Of a DNA stretch of 64,000 bases, positions 1 through 19,519 are shown in pieces. Made by a program: the position numbers and the translations under genes. The DNA is from a virus. The notes under the pieces are model-generated. The model was given only the letters and a program-made list of their open reading frames with translations, ran no database searches and was not told where the DNA came from. The stretch spans positions 169,378 through 233,377 of IMG/VR virus record IMGVR_UViG_3300024239_000015; one strand, given 5' to 3'. Numbering within the stretch: the stretch's first letter is position 1; each line of letters starts with the position of its first letter.

Positions 1-611
1 CCAATCAGGTTTTCGTTGTCGATCAGTTCAAACAGTAACCCACATGGATTTTGTTTGACGGGTGCGTCGTCTAGACTTTCTCGACACTCTTGTAGTACAG
101 AGTGAGGGTGGATAGGCCAGTCGTCGTCCCTTGTTTTTCCAGTACGGTCTACGAACACGACATCTAAGTCCGTTGAGTAGATAAACCCGCCGGCGTCTTT
201 GATATCCTCGTAGTGATGGTAACTGGTTTTTACGTATCCACGGCCTTTGGTGTTTAAGCGCCATTTCGGGATACGGTCGATTTCTTCTTTGCTGAGTAGA
301 TGTAGCTGTGGGTTGTCTTCTAACTCGATCAGGTCAGGACGCATGGTGTGGTCGATAATTTGTTCGACCATCAACCGTCCTTCTAACGTGGGATCTCTAG
401 AGGTCCCTGAGGATGGAATCTTTACTGCGCTTCCGTCGCGCAGGACCATCCATAAGTCTTTTCCTGTAAAGTTGTAATAACGCACGTCACTCATGATCGC
501 GTTACGCGTACCTAAGTCCGTACAGTCTCGCTCTACGACGCGAGCTTTTACAGGACGCGCGTTTGGAACACGCGCTAGATATTGTCCTAATAAATTCGCT
601 GGGTTATTCAC
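1..611 (-). CDS. Unrecognised protein, 3' part cut off by the window edge
   Basis: The minus strand is open from a GTG at 611 to the left edge of the window, about 203 codons with no stop. The translation begins MNNPANLLGQYLARV and is protein-like throughout, with acidic clusters such as ELEDNPQ and DLDVVFVD. The GTG was chosen because an AAGGA lies 12 bases upstream. The frame stays open for about 19 more codons before a TAG, but that stretch has no ATG. A promoter-like motif lies about 200 bases upstream. I do not recognise a family. Lying directly downstream of the capsid gene suggests, but does not show, a virion or head-related role. Confidence 0.7.
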   Translation of the reverse strand, partial: MNNPANLLGQYLARVPNARPVKARVVERDCTDLGTRNAIMSDVRYYNFTGKDLWMVLRDGSAVKIPSSGTSRDPTLEGRLMVEQIIDHTMRPDLIELEDNPQLHLLSKEEIDRIPKWRLNTKGRGYVKTSYHHYEDIKDAGGFIYSTDLDVVFVDRTGKTRDDDWPIHPHSVLQECRESLDDAPVKQNPCGLLFELIDNENLI

Positions 612-805
612 GATACCACTGAATCCTTTTACAGTCTCTTTTGAAAAGAACGAAGCTAATGGGAAAACGCTGTACTAAGCGACCTTAGTTGGACGCTACC
701 TAAAAGCTCGGGTCACCCCGCGTGACCAATTCAACCAAGCGACTTCTAAACGTTCCACGGTTTAGGGAGTTGCGAGGCTGAATGATCGTAGATTACTCAA
801 AAAAA
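612..805 (-). promoter_or_regulatory. Long, possibly structured 5' leader
   Basis: About 190 bases separate a promoter-like motif from the GTG of the truncated gene. The stretch includes a GGTCACGCGGGGTGACC hairpin (6-bp stem) and two similar short segments with GTCGCTT. No tRNA cloverleaf can be drawn. It may be an untranslated leader with regulatory structure. This is inference from position and self-complementarity. Confidence 0.35.
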
Positions 806-834
806 TAATATATATCTGTAATGGATTCGACACG
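806..834 (-). promoter_or_regulatory. Promoter-like motif (family of eight)
   Basis: Read on the minus strand: TCGAATCCATTACAG followed by ATATATATTAT. It shares the TCGAA block, the TTAYAGRTAT block and the terminal ATTAT box with seven other intergenic sites in this window. It follows the capsid gene terminator and precedes the truncated left-end gene. Confidence 0.6.
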
Positions 835-838
835 GCAT

Positions 839-865
839 AGAAGGAGAGCACGAAGCTCTCCTTCT
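839..865 (-). terminator. Terminator hairpin after capsid gene
   Basis: AGAAGGAGAG and CTCTCCTTCT form a 10-bp stem around a short loop, just beyond the stop of the capsid gene. No strong U-run follows, so termination strength is uncertain. Confidence 0.6.
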
Positions 866-887
866 AAAGGGTATTCCACAATGGCGC

Positions 888-3032
888 TTATGGCGTTACT
901 GGGTTGTTGATGAACTCGACTGCACCAGAGGTGATCAGTTCCAGTTCTTCTACGTCGATCTCGATCTGCACTGGGCAGTTCAGGATGTGACGGTTACGAC
1001 GTTGTACGCCTACTTCCATCGCTAATGAACCATCGCGGATCATCTGGATTTCACCGACTAACTCAGGAATCCAAATGTGGTTACCGTAGTTCAGTGGGTG
1101 GTACTCAGCACCATCAGTTAAACGCAGGGCGATCATGATCTTACCGCGCATTAAACGGTTGTTGGTAGAAACCACTTCTGGTTTCAGCAGAGGACCTACA
1201 GTACGGTCATCACCTTGTACCATCAGGTATTGTGGTAATGTAGTATCTGTACCCATTACGACGGTTGGTTTCTGTTCTACACCGCCAGTCATTGCTGACA
1301 CGGCTGCCCAGTAACCAGACACAGTCATTGCTTCAGCAACAGCCTGACCGATCAACGTGGTGAAATAACCTTGGATGTCAGCCAGCTTGTCCTGAGAACG
1401 AACGCTGTTTAACACTTCAGACATTTTCACGTTGATGTAACGGTAGTAAGGCTTCACTAACTCACGACCTAAACCTTCCACTTTTGGAACGATACCAGTG
1501 TCCTGGTACGCTTCATACGCAGAACGAATCAGAGACGCGTTGTCCAGCAGTTGCTGTACAGCAGCGTTGTTCGTTTGTACGCGAGTGGTGTTGATCAGTG
1601 ACTCCGTGTTCACAGAAGCATCGTAAGACGCGTCGGCGTTTACTGGCTTGGTGTAGTGCACTGGAGCGTGTACTGGGATGGTGTAACCTTCACGACGGAT
1701 GTTTTGTTCCACCAGGATACCACGGCTGCGGTAGTTGCTGTTGGTACGACGAGCTGACAACTCAAAGCTATCTAATTCGAACGTTACACCAGTCACGTCA
1801 GCTGCGCCAGTACCGATGTTGTTACCGTTAGCGTCGAATACGCGAACGATTTCCACCTGACCTGACATGTACAGGTTACCTGACTGAACGTTCAGATCAC
1901 CTTTGAAGCGCAGACGCACTTGTACTTTACCAGTGAATGCAGCAAACGCAGGAACCACAGCACCAGCGATGTCTTTGGTTGCAGAACTGAACGTTACTGT
2001 GTCGACGTTCATGTTCAGTAACATCTCTCTCCAATCGCCTTCTGGCGTTTTGAAGAACTGAGTGCCTGGAGCATTACGTAGATCAACGAACACGTAGCTT
2101 TCGTCAGTGGCTTTGGTCACTTTCAACCAAGCACCTACTACTTTCGCAGCTGGGTCAATGGCATCTTGCTCAGTGAACACGTTGTTGCTCAGCAGCGTTG
2201 GGTGAGCAGACAGACCTAACAGACCGATTGACTTATCAAACACCAGCGGAGCAGTAGGAACGTTGACAGAACCCACGGCACGAGTAGAGGCTAAACCAGC
2301 TACTGCAGAGAAATAAGCGTTCTGACTGTTGTCTGGGTTTTTGTACGGCACCAGGTCAGTGATGTTGTTTTTCAGGATGTCAGGGTTTACCACTGCATCT
2401 AACAGAGACTTACGGTTGAAGTCAGCTTCAGCACCACCGTTCACGTGTTTGTAGCCTGGGTACACTAACGTACGGTCTACTTGCACCATGAAGATCGATT
2501 GGTCAGGAGTAGCAACGATCGTTGGGAAAAACGCTTCAGCGAAATCGTCCTGACGGGCAGACAGTACGTTCCACGTGATGGTCTGCTCAATGTAGTTTTG
2601 AGCGTTGGTACGGTCGAAAGCTTCCTGAGAGAAATTCGGTTGGAATAACATCTCACCGTTCTGAGCGTTTGGAGTCCACTGTACAGAAGGAACACCCGCT
2701 TTCGAACCCCAGCTGTTTAAGTTGTTACGTGCTAACGCAACGACTGTAGCGGCTTCTAAACCTAAGCTTAAACGCTCTAACGCAGCTTTGTTGCCAGTCA
2801 GATCGATTTTACTGTTTTCGAAAGCAGTTTTCAACGCACCTTCCAGTTCGTTATTCACAGAACTGAACGTACCTTTTAATGCTTGGGTATCCTGGAAGCT
2901 CAGAGACTCTGCGGACAGAATCTTTTGGCCTACGGCAGAATCTGCAGCTTGGCGAGCCAGTGCTGCTTTTACTTGTGTTTGCAGATTACCTACAAACGTA
3001 CCGGCCGATTGGCCTAATGCGAACTTTGACAT
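888..3032 (-). CDS. Major capsid protein (phiKZ-type), precursor
   Basis: A 714-residue protein that probably forms the head shell. The size fits the large capsid proteins of phiKZ relatives (about 750 residues). The segment EAFFPTIVATP near residue 165 resembles a stretch I recall from that family. The first ~135 residues are helical and low in aromatics, like a removable delta-type domain. SQE followed by A at residues 134-137 fits the S/A/G-X-E specificity known for the phiKZ prohead protease; a second candidate, SAE, ends at residue 42. An AAAGGAAGG ribosome-binding site precedes the ATG. The gene stands in its own unit, with a palindromic CTTAACGTTAAG in the leader and a terminator behind. 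The family call rests on length, layout and short motifs, not on an alignment. Confidence 0.75.
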   Translation of the reverse strand: MSKFALGQSAGTFVGNLQTQVKAALARQAADSAVGQKILSAESLSFQDTQALKGTFSSVNNELEGALKTAFENSKIDLTGNKAALERLSLGLEAATVVALARNNLNSWGSKAGVPSVQWTPNAQNGEMLFQPNFSQEAFDRTNAQNYIEQTITWNVLSARQDDFAEAFFPTIVATPDQSIFMVQVDRTLVYPGYKHVNGGAEADFNRKSLLDAVVNPDILKNNITDLVPYKNPDNSQNAYFSAVAGLASTRAVGSVNVPTAPLVFDKSIGLLGLSAHPTLLSNNVFTEQDAIDPAAKVVGAWLKVTKATDESYVFVDLRNAPGTQFFKTPEGDWREMLLNMNVDTVTFSSATKDIAGAVVPAFAAFTGKVQVRLRFKGDLNVQSGNLYMSGQVEIVRVFDANGNNIGTGAADVTGVTFELDSFELSARRTNSNYRSRGILVEQNIRREGYTIPVHAPVHYTKPVNADASYDASVNTESLINTTRVQTNNAAVQQLLDNASLIRSAYEAYQDTGIVPKVEGLGRELVKPYYRYINVKMSEVLNSVRSQDKLADIQGYFTTLIGQAVAEAMTVSGYWAAVSAMTGGVEQKPTVVMGTDTTLPQYLMVQGDDRTVGPLLKPEVVSTNNRLMRGKIMIALRLTDGAEYHPLNYGNHIWIPELVGEIQMIRDGSLAMEVGVQRRNRHILNCPVQIEIDVEELELITSGAVEFINNPVTP

Positions 3033-3110
3033 AGTCGATGCCTTCCTTTACTCTTAACGTTAAGATTCATACTACCGACGACACCGGGGCCGCCAGAAGC
3101 ACTCAAATGA

Positions 3111-3656
3111 TTAATGCGTTTGTTCCAGCGCACAGAAAAGTTTGAACATTTCTGACTGTTCCAGCTCCCGGTGCGTCATCATTTTATTCAGCTCAATCAA
3201 GGTTTGTTCTAAGAACGCACTTTGTTCAAACTGAATCCAACTCCCCACGCCCATAAAGGCGATGGTTTCGTCAGAGACGCAGCACGGTACATAGGATGTT
3301 CTACGTACTGTAACGGGGACTGAGATCTCACTCAGCTCCACCCCACTCCGTTCTGCTACAGCCACTGCTGTATCGAACTCTGCTTCTGCAGCTTGTAGCT
3401 TGCTGCGATGTTTGGTTAACCACGCATCGTTTTGTGGGTGGTCGGTAAAACTTTTAAAAGCGCCCGTTAGCCCTTTCAAATACCGTTCACGGCGATTGTG
3501 GTATGCGACGTAAAAACATACGTCCTGTACAGATAATTTGTCCTCCAGTAACGAGAGGTTCGTAAAGTCACTGACTGGTATTTGTCTAGACGTCGCTAGT
3601 TCTTTAAACCACTCTGGGATTAAAGCGACGTAACGAGTCACGGGATTTTGCATCAT
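3111..3656 (-). CDS. Unrecognised protein upstream of the capsid gene
   Basis: 181 residues, mixed helical, beginning MMQNPVTRYVALIPEWF. Only a weak ribosome-binding site (CGGATT) is seen, and the start could be either of the two adjacent ATGs. It lies 78 bases upstream of the capsid gene on the same strand and diverges from the helicase gene. No signal peptide, membrane segment or catalytic motif is visible. Co-transcription with the capsid gene is possible; function unknown. Confidence 0.7.
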   Translation of the reverse strand: MMQNPVTRYVALIPEWFKELATSRQIPVSDFTNLSLLEDKLSVQDVCFYVAYHNRRERYLKGLTGAFKSFTDHPQNDAWLTKHRSKLQAAEAEFDTAVAVAERSGVELSEISVPVTVRRTSYVPCCVSDETIAFMGVGSWIQFEQSAFLEQTLIELNKMMTHRELEQSEMFKLFCALEQTH

Positions 3657-3707
3657 AGTGAAATCCGCTTTTAAAAGGTTTATGGTTAATTAACAACAGG
3701 AGTTACG
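3657..3707. promoter_or_regulatory. Divergent intergenic region
   Basis: These 51 bases separate a minus gene from the plus-strand helicase gene, so they should carry start signals for both. The plus strand has AT-rich TTTTAAAAGG, TTTATGG and TTAATTAAC, then ACAGGAG as the helicase ribosome-binding site. The eight-member promoter motif is not present here. Confidence 0.3.
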
Positions 3708-5635
3708 ATGGACGCTACCATGATTCTGGTGCAGGCTTTATCTCTAGCCTACTGGGAAAGCCGTTTACAACACACGTCCGGCGGGTCCATACAATTGCTT
3801 AGCAACGTGTTAGAAGAAGTCCCTATCCCAGATCAGAACATCGATGGGGATCGTACACGAGAGATCGTCGTGGGGTTACGTGGTTTAGTGCTGCAGTATA
3901 TCAACAAACCCGACCAAGGTGCGATGAACCTTGGTACACTCCTGCAACGAGTAAGGATTATCTGTCGTGATCAAAATTCGATCTACGACGCATTTGCTAA
4001 TGGTTTAGCAGATGGCTTAGAAGGCATTGAGATTCAAAAACGTTGCTTTTTATACGCACAGGAACTTTCTGACTTTGTGAACTTACGGAAGTTTCAAAAA
4101 CAAGTCAAAGGGTTCTACGCCAAACACGCGTACTCAGGCGAGCAGATCGACATCGCTTCAGCCGCAGCAGAAATGATCGAACAGTTAGAGCACTACGTGT
4201 ATCACCGCGAGGGAGCTTTAATAGACGGAATTTCAGGGATTGTCGACTATGTCGATATTTCTGACGAAGAGAAAATGCAGGACTTGTTTAAGAAAGCTCA
4301 GGAGGAGTCGTCTTCTGAGGGTATTCTGAAAGTAGGCTGGCAGGGGCTGACTCGGATGTTCGGTTGGCACGGCGGTCTGAGGCGAGGCGACTTTTACTTA
4401 ATCGGTGCGCTGCAACACAACTACAAATCAGGGATGGTTCTGAACCTCACTAAACAAGTTGCTTTGTATAACACACCGTACATGATCGACCCGAAGAAGA
4501 AGCCACTGATACTTGTTGTAGCCGCTGAAAACGCTACGACAGACAACATGACGTTTTTGTACTCTTCTTTAGTAGAGAATGAAACACAGCAACCAGCGGA
4601 CTTGACTAGGGTCTCCTACGAGGAGATGACGTCCTATGTGAAGCGACGTTTAGGCGTGAACGGATACCACTTCCACCACGTACGTGTAAACCCCTCTGAC
4701 TTTGGTTACCCAGAACTCTTTACGTTGATTCTGAAACTAGAAGCAGAAGGATACGAGATACACCTACTGACGATTGACTACCTGAACATGTTCAGTAAAA
4801 AAGGTTGTACGGCTGGTGCCCAAGGGCAAGACGTGCGTGACCTATTTAGACGTGTAAGAAACTTTTGTGCTCCTTAATTACAGGGCGTTAAAGCCGTAAG
4901 GTTTTAATGAAACCTCTCTGAACTGCTGGAAACCCCTAAAGCTGTTTCACCACTGCGAGGCGAAAGCCAAAGCCACGGTTTGAAAACGAAACGGATGTAC
5001 AATGGGCAACCGTGAGACCTAAGGTCTCCTGTAGCAGCCAAGTCCCCTCCCGTCCTTGAGACGCGGGGAAAGGTTCAACGACTATCCCGTAGCTGGGAGT
5101 AGGACTCAAGTGAGTCCCAAGTGGAGAGCTCCTCCTATTCTACTAAGAGTAGAGGATGAAATGATATAGTCTGTTCTGTAGGGAAAGCCTACAGCTGCGT
5201 ACCCACGCTGTGAAGCGTAAGACGCGGGAGAGGTCTCACGAACCTCTCCGAACATAAAAGAGAAGAATAGCGGTCATGACACCGGCTCAGATCAGCACAG
5301 AGGCGAAGTACTTGTTGAGGAATGGTGTAGATGACTTCGTGAAAGAAATCGCCAACAAAGGCTACTGGGACTCCTGTAAAACGATCGACCAAGAAGTCGA
5401 TATGGAAATGTTGATCCATATCGTGAAACTCGATGGTCGGAGTTACTTAACGGTACAACGTGGGAAACACCGTGGCTTAGGCACCCGCATGACACCTGAG
5501 ACAGATCTGTATACCGTACTTCCGTTTGAGCCTGTAGGTGGTATACGAGATGACATCCATGGTCGTGATACCAGTATGTCTCGTCCAGGGGGCGCTAACC
5601 TACACGGGGATGGCGGTGAGTGGTTTGCAGCATGA
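3708..5635 (+). CDS. DnaB-type replicative helicase, interrupted by a group I intron
   Basis: Hexameric helicase that unwinds DNA ahead of the phage polymerase. Exon 1 is 3708-4874 and exon 2 is 5261-5635, giving 513 residues after splicing. The RecA-like core starts near residue 205. The Walker A equivalent is GALQHNYKS (233-241), with the usual second glycine replaced by tyrosine. A glutamate follows in VVAAENATTD (E274), the Walker B strand is IHLLTIDYLN (351-360), and the H4-like strand MTPAQIS falls right after the splice junction. KHRGLG in exon 2 is in the place of the arginine-finger loop. The joined reading FCAP-RRIAVMTPAQIS restores the expected order of these motifs, which supports the splice sites. 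An ACAGGAG ribosome-binding site precedes the ATG. The unspliced reading stops at 4877 and would lack the finger. Confidence 0.85.
4875..5260 (+). ncRNA. Group I intron in the helicase gene
   Basis: 386 bases with the hallmarks of a self-splicing phage group I intron. The upstream exon ends in T (position 4874) and the intron ends in G (5260). The exon end GCTCCT can pair with AGGGCG just inside the intron, giving the U.G pair at the 5' splice site. The P/Q-like element is CTGGAAACCCCTAAAGC near 4930. The P7-type strands are GTTCAACGACTATCCC (from 5073) and GATATAGTCTG (from 5163). Splicing keeps the reading frame. No homing endonuclease is encoded. The core is nearly identical to that of the polymerase intron at 34603. 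Confidence 0.85.
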
Positions 5636-6024
5636 TCGACTACTATCTGTGGGGGATACTCCTTAAAAGTATCCTCGTGCTTATCTATTACTGGAATAAA
5701 CACGAGCATCGAATTGCGTCAAGACAACTCAACGTCACAGGACACCTTACAGCGATTTGGTCAGCGTGTATCTTAGCGTATACGCTCTGTCGTCAAACCC
5801 CTGTGCTTTTAGAGCAGTGGTTATACGCCGTCGCTACTGTTGCGTTATTGGAGTTTATACTCTGGGTCCTTGAAGTACATTTCAAGCGAGTCTCTGTACT
5901 TAGAGGAAAACTTCTGTATAAAGAACACATGGACATCACCAAGGTCTTGCAAGGATTTGTACGCAGTAAAGCAATCTGGCTGTATTTACCCTACTGGAGT
6001 TTTTTACTCTGGTACAGCGCGTAA
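5632..6024 (+). CDS. Small integral membrane protein
   Basis: The ATG at 5632 overlaps the helicase stop (ATGA), so the two are probably translationally coupled; an earlier ATG at 5620 also exists. About 130 residues with roughly four hydrophobic segments: residues 1-21, a segment near 40-55, one near 65-85 (AVATVALLEFILWVLEV) and the C-terminal WLYLPYWSFLLWY. No family recognised. Position in a replication operon suggests a possible role in anchoring replication to a membrane, which is speculation. Confidence 0.7.
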   Translation: MIDYYLWGILLKSILVLIYYWNKHEHRIASRQLNVTGHLTAIWSACILAYTLCRQTPVLLEQWLYAVATVALLEFILWVLEVHFKRVSVLRGKLLYKEHMDITKVLQGFVRSKAIWLYLPYWSFLLWYSA

Positions 6025-6053
6025 TACAAAAAAAGAAATGAAGCAAAAAAAGT

Positions 6054-6085
6054 GCATAGAGGAGGCCCGAAGGCCTCCTCTATGC
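6054..6085. terminator. Perfect 14-bp terminator hairpin with minus-strand U-run
   Basis: GCATAGAGGAGGCC, a CGAA loop, then the exact complement. On the minus strand it is followed by ACTTTTTTTGC, a good intrinsic terminator for transcripts coming from the right, that is from the candidate structured RNA. On the plus strand there is no U-run, though the membrane-protein gene ends 30 bases upstream. Confidence 0.8.
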
Positions 6086-6090
6086 TAAGT

Positions 6091-6477
6091 AAGGTATGAA
6101 AGGTTAACACGGGTCTACGGACGAACATGGGTGAGTATTTCTACGATCATTCGTTAGCGTAGGTTTAGGTGTTGTGTGACTTTTAGTCATGCCGCCGTCG
6201 CGGTGTCTTGGAAGACGACTAGAAGTCAGTGACAAGGCAGGTTGGAAGGCTGCGCTCACCTTTATTACGCCGACTGTTCGTGTGGCACGCAAACGAGACG
6301 CGTGTGGAGGACTTTTCGGGACTCTTACATGACGCAGTAATCTTGGGGACTGCGTGGGCCGGAAACCACCGGTTGGCCGCTGCGCGGACAAGCAGTATTC
6401 CTTGTTTACCAAAGCCGGAGAGCTCTTGCTGTCTCCTGTAAAGGAGAGTAGCCAAATTGCCGCATCTTTCATACCTT
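6091..6477 (-). ncRNA. Candidate structured RNA closed by a 12-bp helix
   Basis: This block is bounded by AAGGTATGAAAG (6091-6102) and its exact complement CTTTCATACCTT (6466-6477), which would form a closing helix. Inside are further perfect stems: ACGCAGT/ACTGCGT (6332-6355), TCTCC/GGAGA (6432-6447) and TGACT/AGTCA (6177-6189). Two more hairpins sit just outside on the right (6496-6511 and 6512-6540). The minus strand is favoured because a perfect U-tailed terminator lies immediately downstream on that strand. A 122-residue reading frame fills most of the block on the minus strand, but its amino acids and codons do not resemble the other genes here. The block does not carry the conserved RNase P or tmRNA motifs I looked for. 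Family unknown. Confidence 0.55.
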
Positions 6478-6553
6478 AAACTCCCTTCGGATGTTCGAGC
6501 ACGAACGCTCGTGTAGATACACTCGTCAGAGTGCAGCTACGCAAACGAGGTGG

Positions 6554-6640
6554 TTAGCGAGGTTTGGTATTAATCGCGTACACTGTGAAAACGTACGTTT
6601 TACCATTGATCGCTAACTGAACAGTTTGGGGTTCTTGCAT
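6554..6640 (-). CDS. Possible 28-residue peptide
   Basis: A short frame beginning MQEPQTVQLAINGKTYVFT, with alternating hydrophobic residues like a beta hairpin and codons like the neighbouring genes. An AGGA lies 13 bases before the ATG. It sits between the structured-RNA candidate and the 80-residue gene on the same strand. It is too short to be certain. Confidence 0.35.
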   Translation of the reverse strand: MQEPQTVQLAINGKTYVFTVYAINTKPR

Positions 6641-6700
6641 GGTGGATGTGTCCTAAAAGTTGAGTGGGGGAATGGGGGAATGTTCTACAGCGGCATAAAA

Positions 6701-6720
6701 GTGGGAGCTCACGCTCCCAC
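6701..6720 (-). terminator. Terminator hairpin overlapping a stop codon
   Basis: GTGGGAGC-TCAC-GCTCCCAC, followed on the minus strand by TTTTATGCC. The stop codon of the 80-residue gene lies inside the stem. Confidence 0.7.
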
Positions 6721-6951
6721 GTAGACACGTTGTGCCTGTGGAAAGTTGCGGGCTAGTAATTCAACATTCAGAGCAGTTTGGATGTCACGGATAAATTGCG
6801 CATCTAACTCTTCTGGAACGTCACCTACTAACTCGTATGCAACTTTTACGGTTTGTTCGCCGGATTTTACTACGACGAAACCGTCTGGGATACCGACTTC
6901 ACCTAATTGTTTCAGGTGGACTTCTACGTTGGGTCTTACTAAGGTTGCCAT
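6709..6951 (-). CDS. Small unrecognised protein
   Basis: 80 residues, beginning MATLVRPNVEVHLKQLGEVG, with beta-strand-like stretches and a helical acidic middle (EELDAQFIRDIQ). ACAGGAG precedes the ATG. It has its own promoter-like motif about 70 bases upstream and its own terminator, so it is a single-gene unit. No family recognised. Confidence 0.75.
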   Translation of the reverse strand: MATLVRPNVEVHLKQLGEVGIPDGFVVVKSGEQTVKVAYELVGDVPEELDAQFIRDIQTALNVELLARNFPQAQRVYVGA

Positions 6952-7017
6952 GGTGTTTGCTCCTGTTGGCTGGGTGGAAAATTCCTAGGGATCTGACGTC
7001 AAGCGTCATATCAACTT

Positions 7018-7046
7018 TATATTAAATATCTATAAAAGATTCGAGT
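7018..7046 (-). promoter_or_regulatory. Promoter-like motif
   Basis: Minus strand: CTCGAATCTTTTATAG, then ATATTTAATAT. It lies directly after the terminator of the gene ending at 7091 and upstream of the small gene starting at 6951. The leader after it can fold as TGACG-CTTGA-CGTCA. Confidence 0.65.
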
Positions 7047-7049
7047 CAG

Positions 7050-7080
7050 GCTACTCTAGGGCACTGCGCCCTAGAGTAGC
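7050..7080 (-). terminator. 13-bp terminator hairpin
   Basis: GCTACTCTAGGGC and its exact complement around a five-base loop, just past the stop of the 446-residue gene and abutting the next promoter motif. Confidence 0.8.
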
Positions 7081-7090
7081 TTTATGTCGG

Positions 7091-8431
7091 TTAAGTTTTT
7101 GGGATAAAATACACCATGACCGAAGCCGTGGTTTGGTACGTCTCTGTGGTAAACCCAGGACGTTCTAACGCGGTATATGCCTCTACCCCAAGGACTGTGC
7201 CGTAGCCTTCTACTAAGCCTTGTGGGCCTTGATAGAAAATACGCATGGGCATACCGGGGACTAACAACTCAGGGTCTGCATCATTCCATACGAAATGTGC
7301 CAGTTGACCTTTACGCGCTGAGAGTTTAGAAAGCTCTCGTGCGATGTTGTCCGTCACACGACGCTGAAGCATCGGAGCGTTGTTGAGTTTAGACTCACGC
7401 TCCTGGACTTGTACTGTCGCTGCGGTTTTATCGGGCTGTAAAACACCCACTCCGTTCTCGACTTTCACAAACTCATTAAACTGTTTGGTGGCAACGCTAA
7501 ACATTGCACCATTGCCTTCTGAGGTTTGTTTTTGGTCACTAAAGTCAAAATGCTTTACTGCCCCAGTAATTACAACAGTCACTCGATCGTTCTTTACGTC
7601 GTAGGTTCGTTCGGTGATCACCTGGTTGCGTGGGATGATATAAAAGTCCACGGCATATTTACTTTTGTTGTATCGCGTCGTGTCATACAACGGATATACA
7701 TACAATAACTGTCGGTGTGAAAAAATACCGATGTCGTTGTTGTAGATCCCTCCCCCATGTTTCTGTAGATACCCTGGTAGGTTATAAAGCTCTACACCGT
7801 GTTGGATGTTGATCTGTTTCCTGACGGTTTTGTTATCAGGCGTCACAAACTCCAACCCCTTTAATCGCTCGTTCTCTAACCCTTTGGTTTGGCTGATCGC
7901 TTGGGTGAGTAAACACTTGAGTAAATCTCCTGGTGTGGAGTTGACGTAAGGTCCACCAAAACGAACGTATTGCAGTTTATCAAACTCTATTGGAATCAAC
8001 TGAAACTTTACGTTGACAAAGGTCTGAGTCCCGCTGACTTGTGCAAGACCTGACATACTGTTCTGTCCTAAGAGTCCAGGGTCTGTGTTCTCTAAAAGGA
8101 CAGCACGGTAAGTACGCAGCGTAGGTGGGAGGGACTTGATGATCCCTCCCTGTAGTTCACCGACGACAATCCGTTTCAAATCTACCTTTAAGTCGTTTCT
8201 GTGTGGGTACACGTATTGACGGTATTGTTCTAACACCATTAAGACTTCCAGAAAGCTTGTTTCCATAAACCCTTTGACAAAGTCTTTCTCTTGGTCAAAG
8301 TTTACTACCTTCCATGGAGAGAACTTTCCTTTGGGGACTCGAAACTCAGCCGTCAGTTGTACAAACACAGGCCGAGGGGCACGTTGGATTTGCCGTACTG
8401 CCTCGGTGTAAAACATCGGTTTTAACGCCAT
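7091..8431 (-). CDS. Probable tail/baseplate structural protein (446 residues)
   Basis: Last gene of a four-gene operon in which each gene overlaps the next, typical of co-assembled proteins. The C-terminal ~70 residues read like a small beta barrel, with ELLVPGMPMRIFYQGP and the strand-rich YQTTASVMVYFIP, a layout seen in hub-type tail proteins. There is no signal peptide or membrane segment. GAGAGGG precedes the ATG. The virion assignment comes from context and composition, not from a recognised domain. Confidence 0.6.
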   Translation of the reverse strand: MALKPMFYTEAVRQIQRAPRPVFVQLTAEFRVPKGKFSPWKVVNFDQEKDFVKGFMETSFLEVLMVLEQYRQYVYPHRNDLKVDLKRIVVGELQGGIIKSLPPTLRTYRAVLLENTDPGLLGQNSMSGLAQVSGTQTFVNVKFQLIPIEFDKLQYVRFGGPYVNSTPGDLLKCLLTQAISQTKGLENERLKGLEFVTPDNKTVRKQINIQHGVELYNLPGYLQKHGGGIYNNDIGIFSHRQLLYVYPLYDTTRYNKSKYAVDFYIIPRNQVITERTYDVKNDRVTVVITGAVKHFDFSDQKQTSEGNGAMFSVATKQFNEFVKVENGVGVLQPDKTAATVQVQERESKLNNAPMLQRRVTDNIARELSKLSARKGQLAHFVWNDADPELLVPGMPMRIFYQGPQGLVEGYGTVLGVEAYTALERPGFTTETYQTTASVMVYFIPKT

Positions 8432-9060
8432 GCGCGTACCCTCTCCCGACCTAAACCACTGAGTGCTGCGTTAAACACGTCAGGGGCTTCGTTGGTGTAG
8501 GTTTTCTGCTCACGTTCAAAGAGTGGGTTTGTGCCCACACCGTGTCTCCAATACTCCAACATCTGCAAGAAGTCAGAGGGAGGAGCCACAGGCTCAGGTC
8601 GCCATCGCTCTACCACAGGGTGGAGTGCGTTGATAAACTCTTGTAAGTCACTCGCGTCTTGTAAGACACGTTGTTTCTCAGGAGACGCTTGAATGGCACG
8701 TTGGCTGAAAAACATCGACTCACTAAAGTACTCCGCGAGGACTTGGACGTGTTCGACCAGTAAGTCGTACAACTTTGCGATTTCTTGGGGTTTCTCGAAC
8801 TGCACTGGAACGCCATCCAAGATCAACTCTAGAATCGATTTGATCTGTGGAGTTTGTTCTGGGTCTCGTACCGCAGGGAGCTGACACAACACCATTTGCT
8901 TTAAAGCTGCTTCGTCGTGTTTTAAGTCCCCACTGGTGGGAGTTCCGTACAACTGGATGTGGTGATCAGTCAGTAAGTGGACTTGTGGAGCTTGTACCCA
9001 CCAGAAGTAGTTAAACAACTTCCAGATAGGGGTAGCCTCCAAAGAAGGATACGTACGCAT
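8422..9060 (-). CDS. Probable tail/baseplate operon protein (212 residues)
   Basis: The ATG overlaps the stop of the upstream gene (TAATG) with TTAGGAG before it, and its end overlaps the next gene by 10 bases. The protein is mostly helical, beginning MRTYPSLEATPIWKLFNYFW, with several tryptophan- and proline-containing turns. No domain recognised. Tight coupling to the neighbours suggests a virion part or an assembly chaperone for them. Confidence 0.6.
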   Translation of the reverse strand: MRTYPSLEATPIWKLFNYFWWVQAPQVHLLTDHHIQLYGTPTSGDLKHDEAALKQMVLCQLPAVRDPEQTPQIKSILELILDGVPVQFEKPQEIAKLYDLLVEHVQVLAEYFSESMFFSQRAIQASPEKQRVLQDASDLQEFINALHPVVERWRPEPVAPPSDFLQMLEYWRHGVGTNPLFEREQKTYTNEAPDVFNAALSGLGRERVRAWR

Positions 9061-10382
9061 TAGTTAATCGCTCCTAAAGCATACACGCTTAAAAACAACA
9101 CTAAAGGAGTAAAGTAAAACCGCTGTACTTCACTGAGGTTGTCAAGATCGCGTGCTAAGGTTAATACCCTGGCGAGCTGAGGGGTTTGATTGTCTAACAC
9201 CGCTTTGAGTTCTTGCTCTAGTACACACGTAGCAACGTAGTCCCTGTAGAACGCCTCAGAAACGACGTAGGCGGGCTCTAGAGGCCATAGGGGTACAGAC
9301 ACACTACTTTGTGTGTGTAAGAGCCCTGAAAGCTCTGTGGTGCTGATTTGAGCACTGAACGATTGGATCGTAGGTGGGGTACCTATCCAGTTAATCGGAC
9401 GTGTGGCGTTGGGGTGGTCTTGAGCAGACTTCACCACAAGGTCAATCCCACTGTAGCGAATGGTTCTGTACAAAGGAGGTTGGAATACCGTCTTTGTAGG
9501 CAGTAACGCAAAATCACGACGACACCGCACCAGCTGCTTCGTGTCTCCTTTGAGTAGAACGTCAAATAGTGTCGTGACTGTTGCTGAGTTCACGTCATCG
9601 CACACCAGCTGTTCCGCTTTCTGGTAGAACCGATAGCGGTCTTTCGGAACCAGGTGGGAGATAAAGTCTACGACGTAAGGATCGTACGTGGTAGTGTCTT
9701 GGTCAGGAACCAAGAACGCTTCAAACTCATGCACGTAGTTTTGTTCAAAGTACTGGTTGATCAACGTCTGCTGTAGAGTCAGTAACGTCTGGTACTGTGC
9801 GTACTCCGACTCGACTAACATTGGGTTTCTACCCACACGTAAGAAATCACGAACGTAGATCACGTCCTTAGTGACTTTCTTTTCAAGATCTCGTGACGTG
9901 ACGTCGTCCAGTAAGGAACGTAACTCGTAACGGATTTCATACGCAGGTTGCTGGAAGATCGACTTCGGCTCAGCTGACGTTAGCGTAAAGAACCCAAGCT
10001 GTCCCGGACGGACTGGGGCGATAAACATATCCCCTACGTTGGGTACCACGTGCGGAAATACAAACGCGGTCCCTTCGACTTTGAACTCAGCGTTTTCAGT
10101 TAAGGACTGAGGCTCAATAGGTGTCGTGACTTTAAACTCAAACTCACGGATTCGCACGTACTGCTGGAGTGCAGGAGGGATACTGGGTGAGTACGCTGTA
10201 GGCTCACTGTCTACCCCTAACACCTGACTGTAGTACGTAACTACCCACTTGGAGCCTTTGACGTGTGTGAGTAAATCGGTCGTTGGGATTAACCGCGTGT
10301 CGTTGGTAATCCCTCGGTAGGGTTGAGTCACTAAGTCCACAGGGGTTTGTGGAGGTGTGGTGTCATCGGTAAAGAAACTCAT
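9060..10382 (-). CDS. Probable tail/baseplate structural protein (440 residues)
   Basis: Starts within the last codons of the upstream gene (GCATGAG, with AGAGGAC before it). The first half is strand-rich, with repeated VTTPIEP-like and FVFPHVVPN turns; the second half is helical and ends in a hydrophobic stretch, FTPLVLFLSVYALGAI. The terminal hydrophobic segment is odd for a soluble virion protein and might be buried in an interface. Family not recognised. Confidence 0.6.
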   Translation of the reverse strand: MSFFTDDTTPPQTPVDLVTQPYRGITNDTRLIPTTDLLTHVKGSKWVVTYYSQVLGVDSEPTAYSPSIPPALQQYVRIREFEFKVTTPIEPQSLTENAEFKVEGTAFVFPHVVPNVGDMFIAPVRPGQLGFFTLTSAEPKSIFQQPAYEIRYELRSLLDDVTSRDLEKKVTKDVIYVRDFLRVGRNPMLVESEYAQYQTLLTLQQTLINQYFEQNYVHEFEAFLVPDQDTTTYDPYVVDFISHLVPKDRYRFYQKAEQLVCDDVNSATVTTLFDVLLKGDTKQLVRCRRDFALLPTKTVFQPPLYRTIRYSGIDLVVKSAQDHPNATRPINWIGTPPTIQSFSAQISTTELSGLLHTQSSVSVPLWPLEPAYVVSEAFYRDYVATCVLEQELKAVLDNQTPQLARVLTLARDLDNLSEVQRFYFTPLVLFLSVYALGAIN

Positions 10383-11914
10383 GCTAAACGTCCTCTGCGG
10401 GTTTTAATTAGTAACTCATTGAACATCCACCACCGGACTTCAAAACTGGTTGCACGTTGTTGACCTATTTTGCGTAGTCGTCCTACGACCTTGTCGTACC
10501 CTTCTTTCTCTACTAAGCGATTAGCGATCACCCGAGGAGTAAGTCCTTGGGGTTGCATAGGCGGATACACCCAGCGTAAGACCTTTAAACACACCTGAGG
10601 GTTTTGACGAAACCGTAGTTCGGTCTGTGTGTCTAGCAGGTCTAAGCCCCACAGGACGTTAAACCGAAACCGGTACTCTAACCGTGGGTCTAAGTCACGA
10701 CTGCAAGTGATCACGAAGTTCTCGTCCATACTTAAGTAGGTGTAGTCAATGGGCACACCCCCTTCGTAGATCTCAATCTGTACTGGACAGTTATTCGCAC
10801 CAAACAAAAATGCACGTTCTTGTTTTAGATACTCTAAAAGCTCAGGAACGATTTCGTACTCACCCAACTGAGTTAACGTCAGTACCGTACGAGGGGTGTC
10901 TGGGTTAATCAACAGCAACGAGGTGACGATGTTCAAGTAGTTGGCGTTTGGATACTTCGGTAACCAATCGTCGTAATGAGGGATAGTAATCCCTACCGTG
11001 TAGTCTTTCGTCAACCACGAGAAACTCCGTGGTGTGTCAAGGATTTCGTCAATAAATCCTTTATCCGCTAAAGCTTCTGGTTTATAACTCGGTAGACGGT
11101 CATACAGTTTCGCTGGTACGGGCTGTTGATGCACCAATACAGGAATCTTCCCAATAATCGAAATCGGACGTTGGTACTGGAACACAAAGTCAAACGTCGC
11201 TTCGTACGTTGCACCGGTGGTTTTACTGGGTTCACTAGGTAGGGTATCACGGAACCACCCTTGTACGTTGATCTGGTCTTCCTGCACGTACGGTTCCATT
11301 TCCGAACCATCCAGTTTGGTAATAAACGTAAACTTTTCTAGTGCAGCGTGGTTCTTCCAGTACACACCGAAGTCTTCTGCGTAGCCTTGTTTGGTTTCCC
11401 GTAAACGATGTAACTCTAAAAGGGTAGCAAACGCTGCAGGTGGGAATGGATACTGGTAACTGACTTTGTGGAGCTGATGTGCTTTGTTATTCCGTAGCTG
11501 CCTTACGAAGTTGTCTCTCCAACGTACCGCGTCTTGTTTGTCTTCAGAGCGGAACGTGAAGGACAACGTCACTTCCATCGTGGTCGTAACGGGACGGTAA
11601 GCGATCCCTAAGTCGGTGTCTAAGAACAAATACTTCTGATCTTTCGTGGTAGAGTTCTGCGCGATCAACGTCGGTTCGTACTCGAGCTCTTGGTGTTTCA
11701 CAAACACCGCTTGACGTTGGTCAAACTGAGGCCCTACTCCTTCTTCTAACCATCCTGAATTTGTTAAACGCAGGACTTGTTGGTCTCCAAAGAACCCCAC
11801 GAAGGTTTGGTCGTGTATACCACTATTGGCTAACACCTGTTTTAAAATAGATACTGCCACAGGACGGGTGATGCTCTGGTACGTCTCTGGTAGCATGTAG
11901 TTGATCAAAGGCAT
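10379..11914 (-). CDS. Probable tail/baseplate structural protein (511 residues)
   Basis: First gene of the four-gene overlapping operon. The start is taken at ATG 11914 (MPLINYMLPETYQ) because CAGGGAGA lies 8 bases upstream; an in-frame TTG at 11935 would sit before that site. The protein is strand-rich with many aromatic residues. It contains NNCPVQIEI, and the capsid protein C-terminus carries NCPVQIEI; in both, a VPEL or IPEL motif lies 20-30 residues earlier. Virion role inferred from context. Confidence 0.6.
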   Translation of the reverse strand: MPLINYMLPETYQSITRPVAVSILKQVLANSGIHDQTFVGFFGDQQVLRLTNSGWLEEGVGPQFDQRQAVFVKHQELEYEPTLIAQNSTTKDQKYLFLDTDLGIAYRPVTTTMEVTLSFTFRSEDKQDAVRWRDNFVRQLRNNKAHQLHKVSYQYPFPPAAFATLLELHRLRETKQGYAEDFGVYWKNHAALEKFTFITKLDGSEMEPYVQEDQINVQGWFRDTLPSEPSKTTGATYEATFDFVFQYQRPISIIGKIPVLVHQQPVPAKLYDRLPSYKPEALADKGFIDEILDTPRSFSWLTKDYTVGITIPHYDDWLPKYPNANYLNIVTSLLLINPDTPRTVLTLTQLGEYEIVPELLEYLKQERAFLFGANNCPVQIEIYEGGVPIDYTYLSMDENFVITCSRDLDPRLEYRFRFNVLWGLDLLDTQTELRFRQNPQVCLKVLRWVYPPMQPQGLTPRVIANRLVEKEGYDKVVGRLRKIGQQRATSFEVRWWMFNELLIKTRRGRLA

Positions 11915-11965
11915 GGGGATGTCTCCCTGAGACAAAAAAAAAGAAATAGGTTCAAAACTATACGA

Positions 11966-11989
11966 TTACGGGGCTTTTCAGCCCCGTAA
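11966..11989 (-). terminator. Terminator hairpin
   Basis: TTACGGGGC-TTTTCA-GCCCCGTAA, 9 bp, directly downstream of the NADAR-like gene on the minus strand and upstream of the tail operon. Confidence 0.65.
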
Positions 11990-11996
11990 CACGTTT

Positions 11997-12500
11997 TTAG
12001 CTTACATGCTTTAACCGTTTAGAAGTCCAGAGTTCGGCATAGAACTCAAGAATCCAAAACGACTTCTTCGCGTCCACGACAACAAATTGTTCACCGCCAC
12101 CAAAGGTGTAATAGTGCGTCAAAGGGAGTGTGTTAGCTAGAAACAGTTTTGTAAGATCAGGGTGTTGTTGGAAACGTAACAGAATCGCACGCTTGAACTC
12201 CTCCTGAAAGTTCTCGAGTGGAATTTGCCGGTAGTTCTTTCCTACCCGTTTTGCATCGTATCCCGAGAGTTCACGTAACGAGTCCCATTGTTTCCCCGTC
12301 CCTAACCAGTACCAGAACGCTTCTAATGACTTAAACTCTCCGTACTCTGGGTGCGTAAACCCCAGAGGAGAGAAATTCGTCAGTAACCGCCCTAGCTCAG
12401 TTCTTGCTTTGGAATAGATGTTGACATGCGTCACACCGTCCTCGCTCAGTTGGGTGAGTTCTAACTCACCCTCTGTGCTCCCTACTTTGAAGGTTTTCAT
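11997..12500 (-). CDS. NADAR-family protein, probable ADP-ribose N-glycosidase
   Basis: 167 residues. The order of motifs fits the NADAR (YbiA-like) fold: NFSPLGF at 42-48, GEFKSLEAFWYWLG with the candidate catalytic glutamate at 60, a DAKRVGKNYRQ turn, EFKRAILLRFQQHPDLTKLFL, then PLTHYY. In the family, NFYP and S-V-E-H-A-F-Q occupy these positions. NADAR proteins hydrolyse ADP-ribose derivatives, and some remove ADP-ribose from guanine in DNA; the phage RB69 homologue AdfN counters DarT toxins. It is the last gene of an operon with a promoter-like motif at 14940. A role in undoing host ADP-ribosylation of phage DNA is inference. Confidence 0.75.
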   Translation of the reverse strand: MKTFKVGSTEGELELTQLSEDGVTHVNIYSKARTELGRLLTNFSPLGFTHPEYGEFKSLEAFWYWLGTGKQWDSLRELSGYDAKRVGKNYRQIPLENFQEEFKRAILLRFQQHPDLTKLFLANTLPLTHYYTFGGGEQFVVVDAKKSFWILEFYAELWTSKRLKHVS

Positions 12501-12509
12501 CCATACCCC

Positions 12510-13472
12510 TTAGTGCAGGTGTTTGTGCTCTGCTGAAATGGAGTTCGTAGGTTCTCCAGTATCGTGACTGTGGTTCACTAAACCGAGCATCGCCATGAAA
12601 TGTTCAATACGACGACTCACCTGAGCAGTGATCTTCACACCGTTTTCAAACTGAGGGATCACACTTACTACACGACGGTTCTGTACACGCACTTCCCAGC
12701 TATAGCCCGTAGCCACGACTTTGTTAGACACAGGACGGTTCAGTAACTCCACTGAGAACACACCCTCGTTGAGTTTCTGTGGGTACGACAAGAACGTAAA
12801 CCCTACAAACTCAACGACCTCTAACCCATGGGGGTTTAGGTGTGTGTTTAAGTAGTACTGTAGTTCTTGGTCTGTCAAACGAGTCGCTAACGCACTGGCT
12901 TGCATTTCGGCTAAGTACAGCTGCTCGTTGAGACGCACTACACAGGTTCGTGTACCTGTTTGTATTTTAGCGACGTCCTCCACTTTGAGGTCACACAGAG
13001 GAGTCGTTACTTCAAACTCATCCATAGTCTCCCCATACTCAACGCGGGGTGCGTCACCGTAACTACCTAGGAGCAACGTGTCTATCCCAGAGACCTCAAC
13101 GTCTCCTACGTGTTTGATTGGGGTGTATAAGTCTAAGTACTCACACCAGCCAAACTGAATACCTGCTAACTCCAGAACTTCAGGTAGCTGTCCGCCGTAG
13201 GTGGTGTTGGCTGCAGCGCCATACCGTACGTTCTGTAATTGCATCACAGGACGTTCCGTCACACCGAAGCACTCAGTGTCTTTCTCCAATACGCTGAAGA
13301 ACTTGGTGGCGTAATTACGACCACCTAACTTCACTTCCTCTACAAGGTCGTATGGGGTCTCTAAGTTTAAAGCGATTTTCTGTACACAGGCTGGGAAAGG
13401 GCTCACCCCACCAGATTTTAAGTCGATAATCACAAATTGTTTACGTACGTCAAAAGTCTCTTTAATAAACAT
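12510..13472 (-). CDS. Unrecognised 320-residue protein
   Basis: Start taken at ATG 13472 (MFIKETFDVRKQFVII), preceded by AAGAGGACG and placed 13 bases after the upstream stop; a longer frame would run into the upstream gene. Strand-rich with scattered acidic turns, and a His-rich C-terminus (SAEHKHLH). The middle contains GEVE-like and VEYGETMDEFEV stretches. No catalytic motif recognised. Co-transcribed with the NADAR-like gene. Confidence 0.7.
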   Translation of the reverse strand: MFIKETFDVRKQFVIIDLKSGGVSPFPACVQKIALNLETPYDLVEEVKLGGRNYATKFFSVLEKDTECFGVTERPVMQLQNVRYGAAANTTYGGQLPEVLELAGIQFGWCEYLDLYTPIKHVGDVEVSGIDTLLLGSYGDAPRVEYGETMDEFEVTTPLCDLKVEDVAKIQTGTRTCVVRLNEQLYLAEMQASALATRLTDQELQYYLNTHLNPHGLEVVEFVGFTFLSYPQKLNEGVFSVELLNRPVSNKVVATGYSWEVRVQNRRVVSVIPQFENGVKITAQVSRRIEHFMAMLGLVNHSHDTGEPTNSISAEHKHLH

Positions 13473-13485
13473 AATGGTCGTCCTC

Positions 13486-13809
13486 TTAAGCTGCGATTGT
13501 GATACGGTTACGGTAGTCAGCACGTACGTGGTCTGGAAGCTGTTTTAGTACTTCTGCCCGTAACGTGTTGGCAAGTACACCAGACGGTAAACGTAAGCTA
13601 CGTGTACCTGTGAAGTAAAAGGCATTCATTCCGTCTAAACAGATCGACGGGTTGGTTTGGGTTTCGTCCCAGTTTCCTGCATGTACAGGGACCAGTGACA
13701 AATGAAATTTTTCTGCTGCTCTTTCAGCAGCACGACGTAACGCAACGTCTTCCTGAGTACGGGCTGCTGTATTGAATGCGGCAAACAGTTTTTTGATGGT
13801 TGTGAACAT
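13486..13809 (-). CDS. Small unrecognised protein
   Basis: 107 residues, preceded by AAAGGAAG. The N-terminal ~35 residues are an amphipathic helix rich in alanine and arginine (AARTQEDVALRRAAERAAEK), the rest mixed. Lies between a terminator-like hairpin and the 320-residue gene. Function unknown. Confidence 0.65.
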   Translation of the reverse strand: MFTTIKKLFAAFNTAARTQEDVALRRAAERAAEKFHLSLVPVHAGNWDETQTNPSICLDGMNAFYFTGTRSLRLPSGVLANTLRAEVLKQLPDHVRADYRNRITIAA

Positions 13810-13840
13810 AGTCTAGCTTCCTTTTTTTGAGAGTGGGGTG

Positions 13841-13863
13841 AGGCTGTGCGGTGGCACAGCCTT
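13841..13863 (-). terminator. Hairpin between operon genes
   Basis: AGGCTGTGC-GGTG-GCACAGCCT, followed on the minus strand by CACCCCACTC rather than a U-run. It may be an attenuating or processing hairpin inside the operon instead of a full terminator. Confidence 0.45.
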
Positions 13864-13867
13864 TGTA

Positions 13868-14188
13868 TCATAAACGAGCGATTTCTTCTTGGCTTAAAAA
13901 CCAGAACCACTCGGTAGGTTTCAGTACCGTTTCCTTTCCAGAGTCGTCAAAGATGACGTAGTTAGACTCCACGAACTTCCCTTGGAGGTTTTCATGTCCG
14001 TAGGTTTGTCGTAAGTAACGAATGGTCTCTGGAGTAGGGACAGCGCGAGTCAGTAAGTCTTTCGGCGTCTCACGCATGCGGCGCAGGATGGCTTTGGTTA
14101 AAGCTCTGCGAGAACGGATACTGCCGTAACCGATTAAGTCTTCACAGTGTGGTGGGATGCCTTGATAAGGGGCGATTCCTTCCAGCAC
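13868..14188 (-). CDS. Small unrecognised protein with unclear start
   Basis: 106 residues from a GTG at 14188 with a weak GGA before it. In the same frame, coding-like sequence (AIVKKDPTDGSYV) continues upstream with no ATG, GTG or TTG until it enters the preceding gene, so the true start may be further up at an unusual codon. The body is basic and helical (RSRRALTKAILRRMRE), suggesting nucleic-acid contact. No family recognised. Confidence 0.6.
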   Translation of the reverse strand: MLEGIAPYQGIPPHCEDLIGYGSIRSRRALTKAILRRMRETPKDLLTRAVPTPETIRYLRQTYGHENLQGKFVESNYVIFDDSGKETVLKPTEWFWFLSQEEIARL

Positions 14189-14267
14189 GTATGATCCATC
14201 GGTTGGGTCTTTCTTTACTATCGCAAAACAGCTGTGGAAGGCTGTCCTACGAATAATCAGCCGGTTA

Positions 14268-14906
14268 TCAGGCTTCTGCTTCAGTGGGGGCAGCAGCCAG
14301 CTGGGGTGCCTCCTTAGGCAGTTTTAATACCGCCAAGAACTGGTTGTAGTACTCGACCAGTAACGGTGAGTACAGATCCAGCTCTTTCTGAGTCGCTTTC
14401 GCGTCTTTAGCCACTAAAGGTTTTGGGAGTGTAAACTCACGACCCTTTAAGTCATCTTCGCTAAAGAGGGATAACCAGTTTTTCTCGTTGTACGTACCGC
14501 AGTGTGTGCGTAAGGTGTATAACACGTCACCGACTTTACGGATTAACTCACGTCGTGTGGTCTCACGCATGAAGTACCACTTTAAACTGTACTTCGTTGC
14601 AAACTGAGTGAAGAGCTCACTAGCGAGTTCCAGCTGTGCTAATGCGAAGCATGCTGCTAACACACGTGGGTTCTTACGCCATTCCAGGACCTGTTCTAAG
14701 GTTTGTTGAATGGCGTACTCGACATGCACGTTCATGTGTGGGTCGGGTAACGTATCCGCGATGGCGGTGGATAAACCCAACACGGATAGACGCACTTCGC
14801 GTACGACCTCTGGCGTAAGCTCAGTTTGCTTTAAGAGCTCTGCTTTGGTTTCCGCGAACAGTCGAATTTGACGTTCTTTATACTCATTTAAATCTAAAGC
14901 TGACAT
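14268..14906 (-). CDS. Unrecognised 212-residue helical protein
   Basis: First gene of the operon that ends with the NADAR-like gene. TAAGGAG precedes the ATG. Predominantly helical (MSALDLNEYKERQIRLFAE at the start), ending in an alanine-proline tail. The promoter-like motif lies 34 bases upstream. No motif identifies it. Confidence 0.7.
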   Translation of the reverse strand: MSALDLNEYKERQIRLFAETKAELLKQTELTPEVVREVRLSVLGLSTAIADTLPDPHMNVHVEYAIQQTLEQVLEWRKNPRVLAACFALAQLELASELFTQFATKYSLKWYFMRETTRRELIRKVGDVLYTLRTHCGTYNEKNWLSLFSEDDLKGREFTLPKPLVAKDAKATQKELDLYSPLLVEYYNQFLAVLKLPKEAPQLAAAPTEAEA

Positions 14907-14939
14907 AGTTAAGTCTCCTTATATGGCTATTGTCCCAAC

Positions 14940-14970
14940 CATATTAAATACCTATAAAAGTTTCGAAACG
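14940..14970 (-). promoter_or_regulatory. Promoter-like motif
   Basis: Minus strand: CGTTTCGAAACTTTTATAG then GTATTTAATAT. It abuts a terminator on the right and precedes the operon starting at 14906. The new leader can form TATGG-TTG...CAA-TAG-CCATA. Confidence 0.7.
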
Positions 14971-14976
14971 GCATAA

Positions 14977-15000
14977 AAGGAGTACCCGAAGGTACTCCTT
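14977..15000 (-). terminator. Terminator hairpin
   Basis: AAGGAGTACC-CGAA-GGTACTCCTT, a 10-bp stem just past the stop of the first inner-head gene, followed on the minus strand by TTTATGCC. Confidence 0.75.
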
Positions 15001-15010
15001 GTTTTATGGC

Positions 15011-16423: not shown

Positions 16424-16456
16424 CTTTAAATTCCTTTACTCAAAAGGTTCTGTGAG

Positions 16457-16478
16457 AGGGGGAGTTTAGACTCCCCCT
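16457..16478 (-). terminator. Hairpin between inner-head genes
   Basis: AGGGGGAGT-TTAG-ACTCCCCCT, 9 bp, downstream of the paralog B stop on the minus strand. Similar hairpins follow the other paralogs, which suggests each gene is separately terminated or processed. Confidence 0.6.
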
Positions 16479-16494
16479 ACGGAACGTAAACGAC

Positions 16495-17940: not shown

Positions 17941-18088
17941 GGTTAAAACTCCAATTGGATTAAAATTTGTTTTTTTAGAACACGTGTTCTACGCACCTAC
18001 AAGCACGTGCACTTGGAAGTGCTTAGGTCACCGGACATACTCTGTAGTCCTGAGCAGCGGTCGGTACATAGCATTAAAGGAAAGACAG
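17941..18088 (-). promoter_or_regulatory. Hairpin-rich intergenic region upstream of paralog B
   Basis: Contains the palindrome AGAACACGTGTTCT and a GCACTT-CCA-AGTGC stem. The eight-member promoter motif is absent. Two TATG-containing AT stretches are present, which may be relevant because phiKZ late promoters carry a TATG core. The assignment is weak. Confidence 0.3.
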
Positions 18089-18119
18089 CATACAGGGAGG
18101 GTTCTACCCTCCCTGTATG
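18089..18119 (-). terminator. Terminator hairpin
   Basis: CATACAGGGAGGGT-TCT-ACCCTCCCTGTATG, a 14-bp stem just beyond the stop of paralog C. It has the GCATAC edge used by the convergent terminators. Confidence 0.75.
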
Positions 18120-18125
18120 GACGTA

Positions 18126-19448: not shown

Positions 19449-19480
19449 CGTTTAGGGTTCCTTACCAAAAAAACGGTAGA

Positions 19481-19506
19481 AAAGAGAGGGCGTAAACCCT
19501 CTCTTT
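19481..19506 (-). terminator. Terminator hairpin
   Basis: AAAGAGAGGG-CGTAAA-CCCTCTCTTT, 10 bp, after paralog D on the minus strand and before the ribosome-binding site of paralog C. Confidence 0.65.
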
Positions 19507-19519
19507 CACACAGACCGAC

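Follow-up and report, generated by a model that had tools for sequence, protein, structure and literature searches.

A candidate noncoding RNA gene, possibly structured, in the convergent gap beside the DnaB helicase gene of a phiKZ-like jumbo phage

A feature of the GOLLD and ROOL RNAs is the formation of a homo-oligomeric RNA cage. Both represent large noncoding RNAs of phages and prophages (PMC12286853), they are often located near tRNA islands, and many GOLLD RNAs exceed 800 nt. Noncoding RNAs detected by Grad-seq in phiKZ include the 3' untranslated region (UTR) of PHIKZ298 (~100 nt) and the 5'UTR of p40 (~180 nt) (PMC8545117). The candidate described here, a block of 388 nt from a phiKZ-like jumbo phage, resembles GOLLD and ROOL in that the proposed RNA is phage encoded, large, and noncoding, but the block lacks an Rfam match at the gathering score or at an E value of 10, it is smaller than GOLLD, and no tRNA is present in the 64-kb window, i.e., the whole stretch of DNA that was analyzed. 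Membership in GOLLD or ROOL, which the initial annotation had considered, is not supported by these comparisons. The noncoding character and the broad phage group are shared with the RNAs from the phiKZ Grad-seq study, but the latter are much shorter and UTR derived, whereas the candidate would be a separate unit of 390 to 650 nt, a distinction that is drawn from their descriptions.

The window comprises positions 169378 to 233377 of a record totaling 233,377 bases and originates from the phiKZ-like jumbo phage G000 (233 kb). At 888-3032 it contains the gene of a major capsid protein of the phiKZ type (PF25620, E = 4.5e-158), for which a search of the genome contigs gave no match, and that of a divergent DnaB helicase on the plus strand (3708-5635), which is interrupted by a group I intron at ~4865-5194. 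A membrane-like protein of 127 to 134 amino acids (aa) is encoded 3' of DnaB at 5641-6024, and somewhat similar membrane proteins occupy the same position in the related phages L066 and L088. Minus-strand genes of the structural type begin at 6709 and continue rightward; the unit near the block consists of the genes for an 80-aa and a 446-aa protein. The block thus sits in a gap (6025-6708) where the DnaB unit, on the plus strand, and the 80-aa gene, on the minus strand, converge.

Group I introns are structured RNAs that occur in this phage in its DnaB gene and its DNA polymerase gene, but the block has no match to their family (RF00028) and interrupts no gene. Within 4500-7200, the RF00028 catalytic core was found only at 4865-5194, i.e., in DnaB (47.2 bits, E = 2.9e-10). 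Over 87 bases of this intron (4910-4996), identity to Pseudomonas phage PAP02 amounts to 87.5%, and gene-free gaps in the DnaB genes of L109 and L125 possibly represent introns at a similar site. The second intron of the window (34602-34991; 34.4 bits, E = 4.5e-7) lies in the DNA polymerase gene phrog_3011, which is split over 33139-34683 and 34996-35283. Further G000 group I introns were reported by Rfam at L039:5377-5767 and L043:6051-6429, and the gap 16541-17318 of G000 has sequence in common with the DnaB intron region, as judged by eye and by BLAST, and would contain another one. A SAM-III riboswitch match at L046:15255-15337 on the plus strand stayed below the gathering score (29.8 bits versus 45, E = 0.0068).

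The block at 6091-6478 is noncoding. Gene calling by codon score left the whole gap 6025-6708 empty, and the 122-residue frame on the minus strand has negative codon log-odds (-0.07 to -0.09 per codon), no 3-base periodicity (chi2 of 5.1 with 6 df, P = 0.52 against shuffles; below ~99% of coding segments), and a second-position GC content of 0.59 (genes, 0.38 +/- 0.04). PHROGs, Pfam, and a tblastn search of phages gave no match to it. The initial description of a gene-free block of about 390 bases is hence borne out, and the block shows the absence of coding signal that characterizes a noncoding RNA gene with an intrinsic terminator. Noncoding stretches of such length are rare in G000, except for those that contain introns.

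The strand of the proposed RNA, read from 6478 to 6091, is deduced from the terminator. Directly beyond the block, no more than 5 nt from its edge, the minus strand carries the perfect 14-bp hairpin that had been noticed before (6085-6054), with a UUCG loop and a run of seven T at 6051-6045. It is the best terminator-like site in positions 1 to 20000, and its assignment as a minus-strand terminator is convincing from sequence features. TATGC is present at both ends of the hairpin, the T7 run just on its minus side; this terminator probably acts for the DnaB unit on the plus strand as well. The perfect hairpins between predicted genes of G000 were surveyed. At nearly all other convergent junctions the minus gene ends at most ~30 nt from the hairpin (42 to 92 nt at three of them), whereas the nearest predicted minus gene lies 624 nt from the hairpin at 6054 and has a terminator of its own (6720-6701). 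Since hairpins of this phage adjoin the 3' ends of genes and none is predicted rightward for 624 nt, a minus-strand transcript is to be expected. Hairpins at convergent junctions mostly have TATG or a run of T to either side, but such two-sidedness is not exclusive to them (10 of 19 convergent junctions versus 7 of 42 positions between tandem minus genes), so that the survey serves as supporting evidence only. The terminator and the absence of coding signal lend good support to a discrete noncoding minus-strand transcript that ends at the hairpin. The discrete RNA gene of the initial annotation accordingly stands with respect to its terminator and the lack of coding signal, whereas its promoter is conjectural and its 5' end a proposal.

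This proposed 5' end is located behind the hairpin that terminates the 80-aa gene (6720-6701, minus strand); this hairpin is followed by TTTTATGC and a TATG at 6697-6694. The late-promoter consensus of phiKZ is TATG, with the G as the start site (PMC4666361), and the motif at 6697-6694 fits it. A start of the RNA at this site is possible but conjectural, because in phiKZ the motif is common and does not suffice by itself. An AT-rich promoter like that upstream of the 80-aa gene was not found in 6478-6700. The same interval includes a 28-codon minus-strand frame with a coding-like codon score, MQEPQTVQLAINGKTYVFTVYAINTKPR, at 6554..6640, possibly a leader peptide or a truncated gene. TATGC-flanked terminator hairpins recur in the window at 838, 6054, 6701, 14977, 27648, 35706, and 61895, and several convergent ones are two-sided. 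The TATGC beside these hairpins possibly doubles as a late-promoter or terminator signal; an interpretation of TATG after hairpins as a pure promoter signal was not adopted, given its occurrence on both sides at convergent junctions. Another recurring promoter-like motif, TTTCGAA..TTATAGATATTTAATAT, is present upstream of several minus genes (6951-7040, 14907-15010, and genes ending at 47530 and 63274).

The inverted repeat bounding the block is indeed perfect and, through an extra T-A pair, comprises 13 bp instead of the 12 bp originally noted. An inverted-repeat search placed its left arm, TAAGGTATGAAAG, at 6090..6102 and its right arm, CTTTCATACCTTA, at 6467..6479. The closing helix alone is not significant against chance, since repeats this long and this spaced are expected about once per window: three repeats of at least 12 bp with a spacing above 100 and below 600 nt were observed, compared with ~1 per shuffled window (range, 0 to 4; 10 shuffles). 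The internal perfect stems are likewise present in the sequence, and folding of the minus strand predicts a three-way-junction-like element at 6178..6227, in which an 11-pair stem (6178-6188/6217-6227) encloses hairpins at 6191-6204 and 6205-6216; one position of this stem reads as A.C on the minus strand and becomes G.U on the plus strand. The two additional hairpins to the right of the block were also recovered on the minus strand (6496-6511 and 6513-6540), together with an 8-bp stem (6553-6560 with 6610-6617) that would lie upstream in the proposed transcript.

Folding energies relative to shuffled sequences give a graded picture. The full block reaches z scores of -2.5 to -3.6 on either strand, to which the closing helix contributes most, and the right flank (6479-6640) is more stable than its shuffles as well (z of -3.2 on the plus and -3.5 on the minus strand). 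The whole minus unit (6694-6091) has a z score of -4.9 (40 shuffles), which falls to -6.6 (20 shuffles) when the sequence is extended into the terminator. The block interior without the closing helix, in contrast, scores -1.1 (plus) and -1.3 (minus), which is the level of the window background (mean, -1.28). The elaborate fold that had been proposed is thus less well supported than first stated; the full block, the right flank, and the minus unit exceed their shuffles in stability, the interior does not exceed the background, and a large structured RNA is a plausible, unproven reading. As both strands of the block are alike in shuffle z score, energy does not reveal the strand.

The block appears to be confined to its lineage. 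The suggested Rfam covariance search, now performed, gave no match to it, neither at the gathering score in the window nor at E values up to 10 within 4500-7200, and located the DnaB intron instead. DNA homologues were not found in phages, plasmids, or the whole records of ~50 relatives, and searches of IMG/VR for the patterns of the closing helix and hairpins retrieved no homologue beyond one near-identical copy (3300024308_000024; 3 mismatches over 22 kb). One hit in L145 was rejected as fortuitous, as it falls in a densely coding, high-GC region. The covariance model of the 6178-6227 junction matched only G000 itself, apart from one hit with an E value of 0.64. Neither DNA, profile, nor partial covariance model searches detected a diverged homologue that could have served for the envisaged alignment with related phages and its compensatory changes in the closing helix, and the near-identical copy carries no information on covariation.

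The same slot, directly 3' of DnaB, is occupied differently in related phages. In L050, the closest relative by DnaB (46%), it holds minus-strand genes of 134, 81, and 84 residues, and the 84-residue protein resembles the 80-residue protein of the window around GIPD, as judged by eye. In L070, L071, and L072 (DnaB, 40%), 440 to 466 nt directly 3' of DnaB are gene free, and a minus-strand RNA of ~290 nt is predicted from covariation (L070:11592-11880, the same in L071, and L072:2966-3226). Its 9 helices comprise 79 pairs with 99.6% of cells paired in the three sequences, and 6 pairs are changed on both sides in a compensatory manner between the two lineages, which are the only distinct ones in the set and from whose own consensus the structure was derived. 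None of 500 shuffles was as good, and sliding of the partners left 0 to 2 such pairs; these controls lean in favor of the RNA. It has no Rfam match at the gathering score, with chance-level ones below, and none of the other records searched contains it; the L070 model matched PhiEaH1 weakly (E = 0.11), which was regarded as chance. A low-coding stretch of ~690 nt 3' of DnaB in L055, L058, L060 to L063, and L069 was rejected as a conserved RNA, since it carries plus-strand frames of ~122 to 165 residues and does not match the block, and gaps in L084, L087 to L089, L110, and L066 encode ordinary proteins.

The predicted L070-L072 RNA shows that the slot 3' of DnaB can carry a structured RNA in the phiKZ-like group, and the covarying RNA that these related phages have there makes a functional RNA at the block more likely. 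Homology of the two is a separate matter. They are alike in slot, strand, gene-free state, and a DnaB-proximal terminator hairpin with TTTTATGCCG, but the L070-L072 RNA is ~290 nt long and matches the block neither in sequence nor by covariance model (R1 model; no match in G000). It is doubtful that both are diverged members of one unrecognized class of structured RNAs that phiKZ-like phages retain 3' of their replicative helicase gene and that plays a common part in infection.

Our preferred reading, to which we assign a probability of about 0.55, is that the block represents a lineage-specific noncoding minus-strand RNA gene, possibly structured, with the flank to ~6694 probably included. 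A nonfunctional spacer is a possible but less favored explanation: the terminator at 6054 would mainly serve the DnaB unit and catch read-through from the 80-aa unit, the block would be neutral, and its helix a product of chance. The background-level interior fold, the frequency of 12-bp repeats at such spacing, and the lack of a homologue anywhere searched are all consistent with a spacer, and a symmetric hairpin that follows the end of the plus gene by 30 nt is explicable by the plus unit alone. The T7 only on the minus side, the rarity of long intron-free noncoding stretches in G000, the stability of the minus unit as a whole, and the covarying RNA that fills the same slot in relatives argue against it.

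Transcription from the opposite strand, with the RNA forming an extended 3'UTR of the DnaB unit, appears improbable. The free energy of the block is lower on the plus strand (-145 versus -123 kcal/mol) and the A.C mismatch of the 11-pair stem becomes G.U, but the shuffle z scores are similar on both strands, the 6054 hairpin would precede the block, with a TATGC exit as at other convergent junctions, and no strong plus-strand terminator exists to its right. It is very improbable that the 122-residue frame is a small protein gene: its start context is good (a Shine-Dalgarno-like GGGAG 8 nt ahead of the ATG) and its stop lies 18 nt ahead of the terminator, yet the codon statistics and the protein searches described above contradict coding. 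Finally, the 13-bp inverted repeats that bound the block might suggest a DNA element, for instance a small mobile one or a structure close to the helicase gene; with no second copy in G000, no flanking target-site duplication seen by eye, and the terminator left unexplained, this reading is hardly credible.

If the RNA gene is real, it would occupy the interval from where the structural-gene unit ends to the DnaB unit that runs toward it, with 6091-6478 and the right flank to ~6694 as the template. Phage RNA polymerase would transcribe it late, possibly from the TATG at 6697-6694, and release the transcript at 6045, whereupon the 13-bp helix could bring the two ends together in a compact and stable RNA. 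We would guess that such an RNA, made late in infection, acts by its fold or by pairing. The slot itself would be variable across jumbo phages, harboring small protein genes as in L050 or another structured RNA as in L070 to L072.

Few noncoding RNAs besides tRNAs and introns are known from nucleus-forming jumbo phages. If our reading is correct, a strongly terminated RNA beside the genes of the replicative helicase and the major capsid protein, together with the covarying slot RNA elsewhere, would mark this region as a hot spot for structured RNAs among these phages and would offer a concrete target for RNA sequencing during infection.
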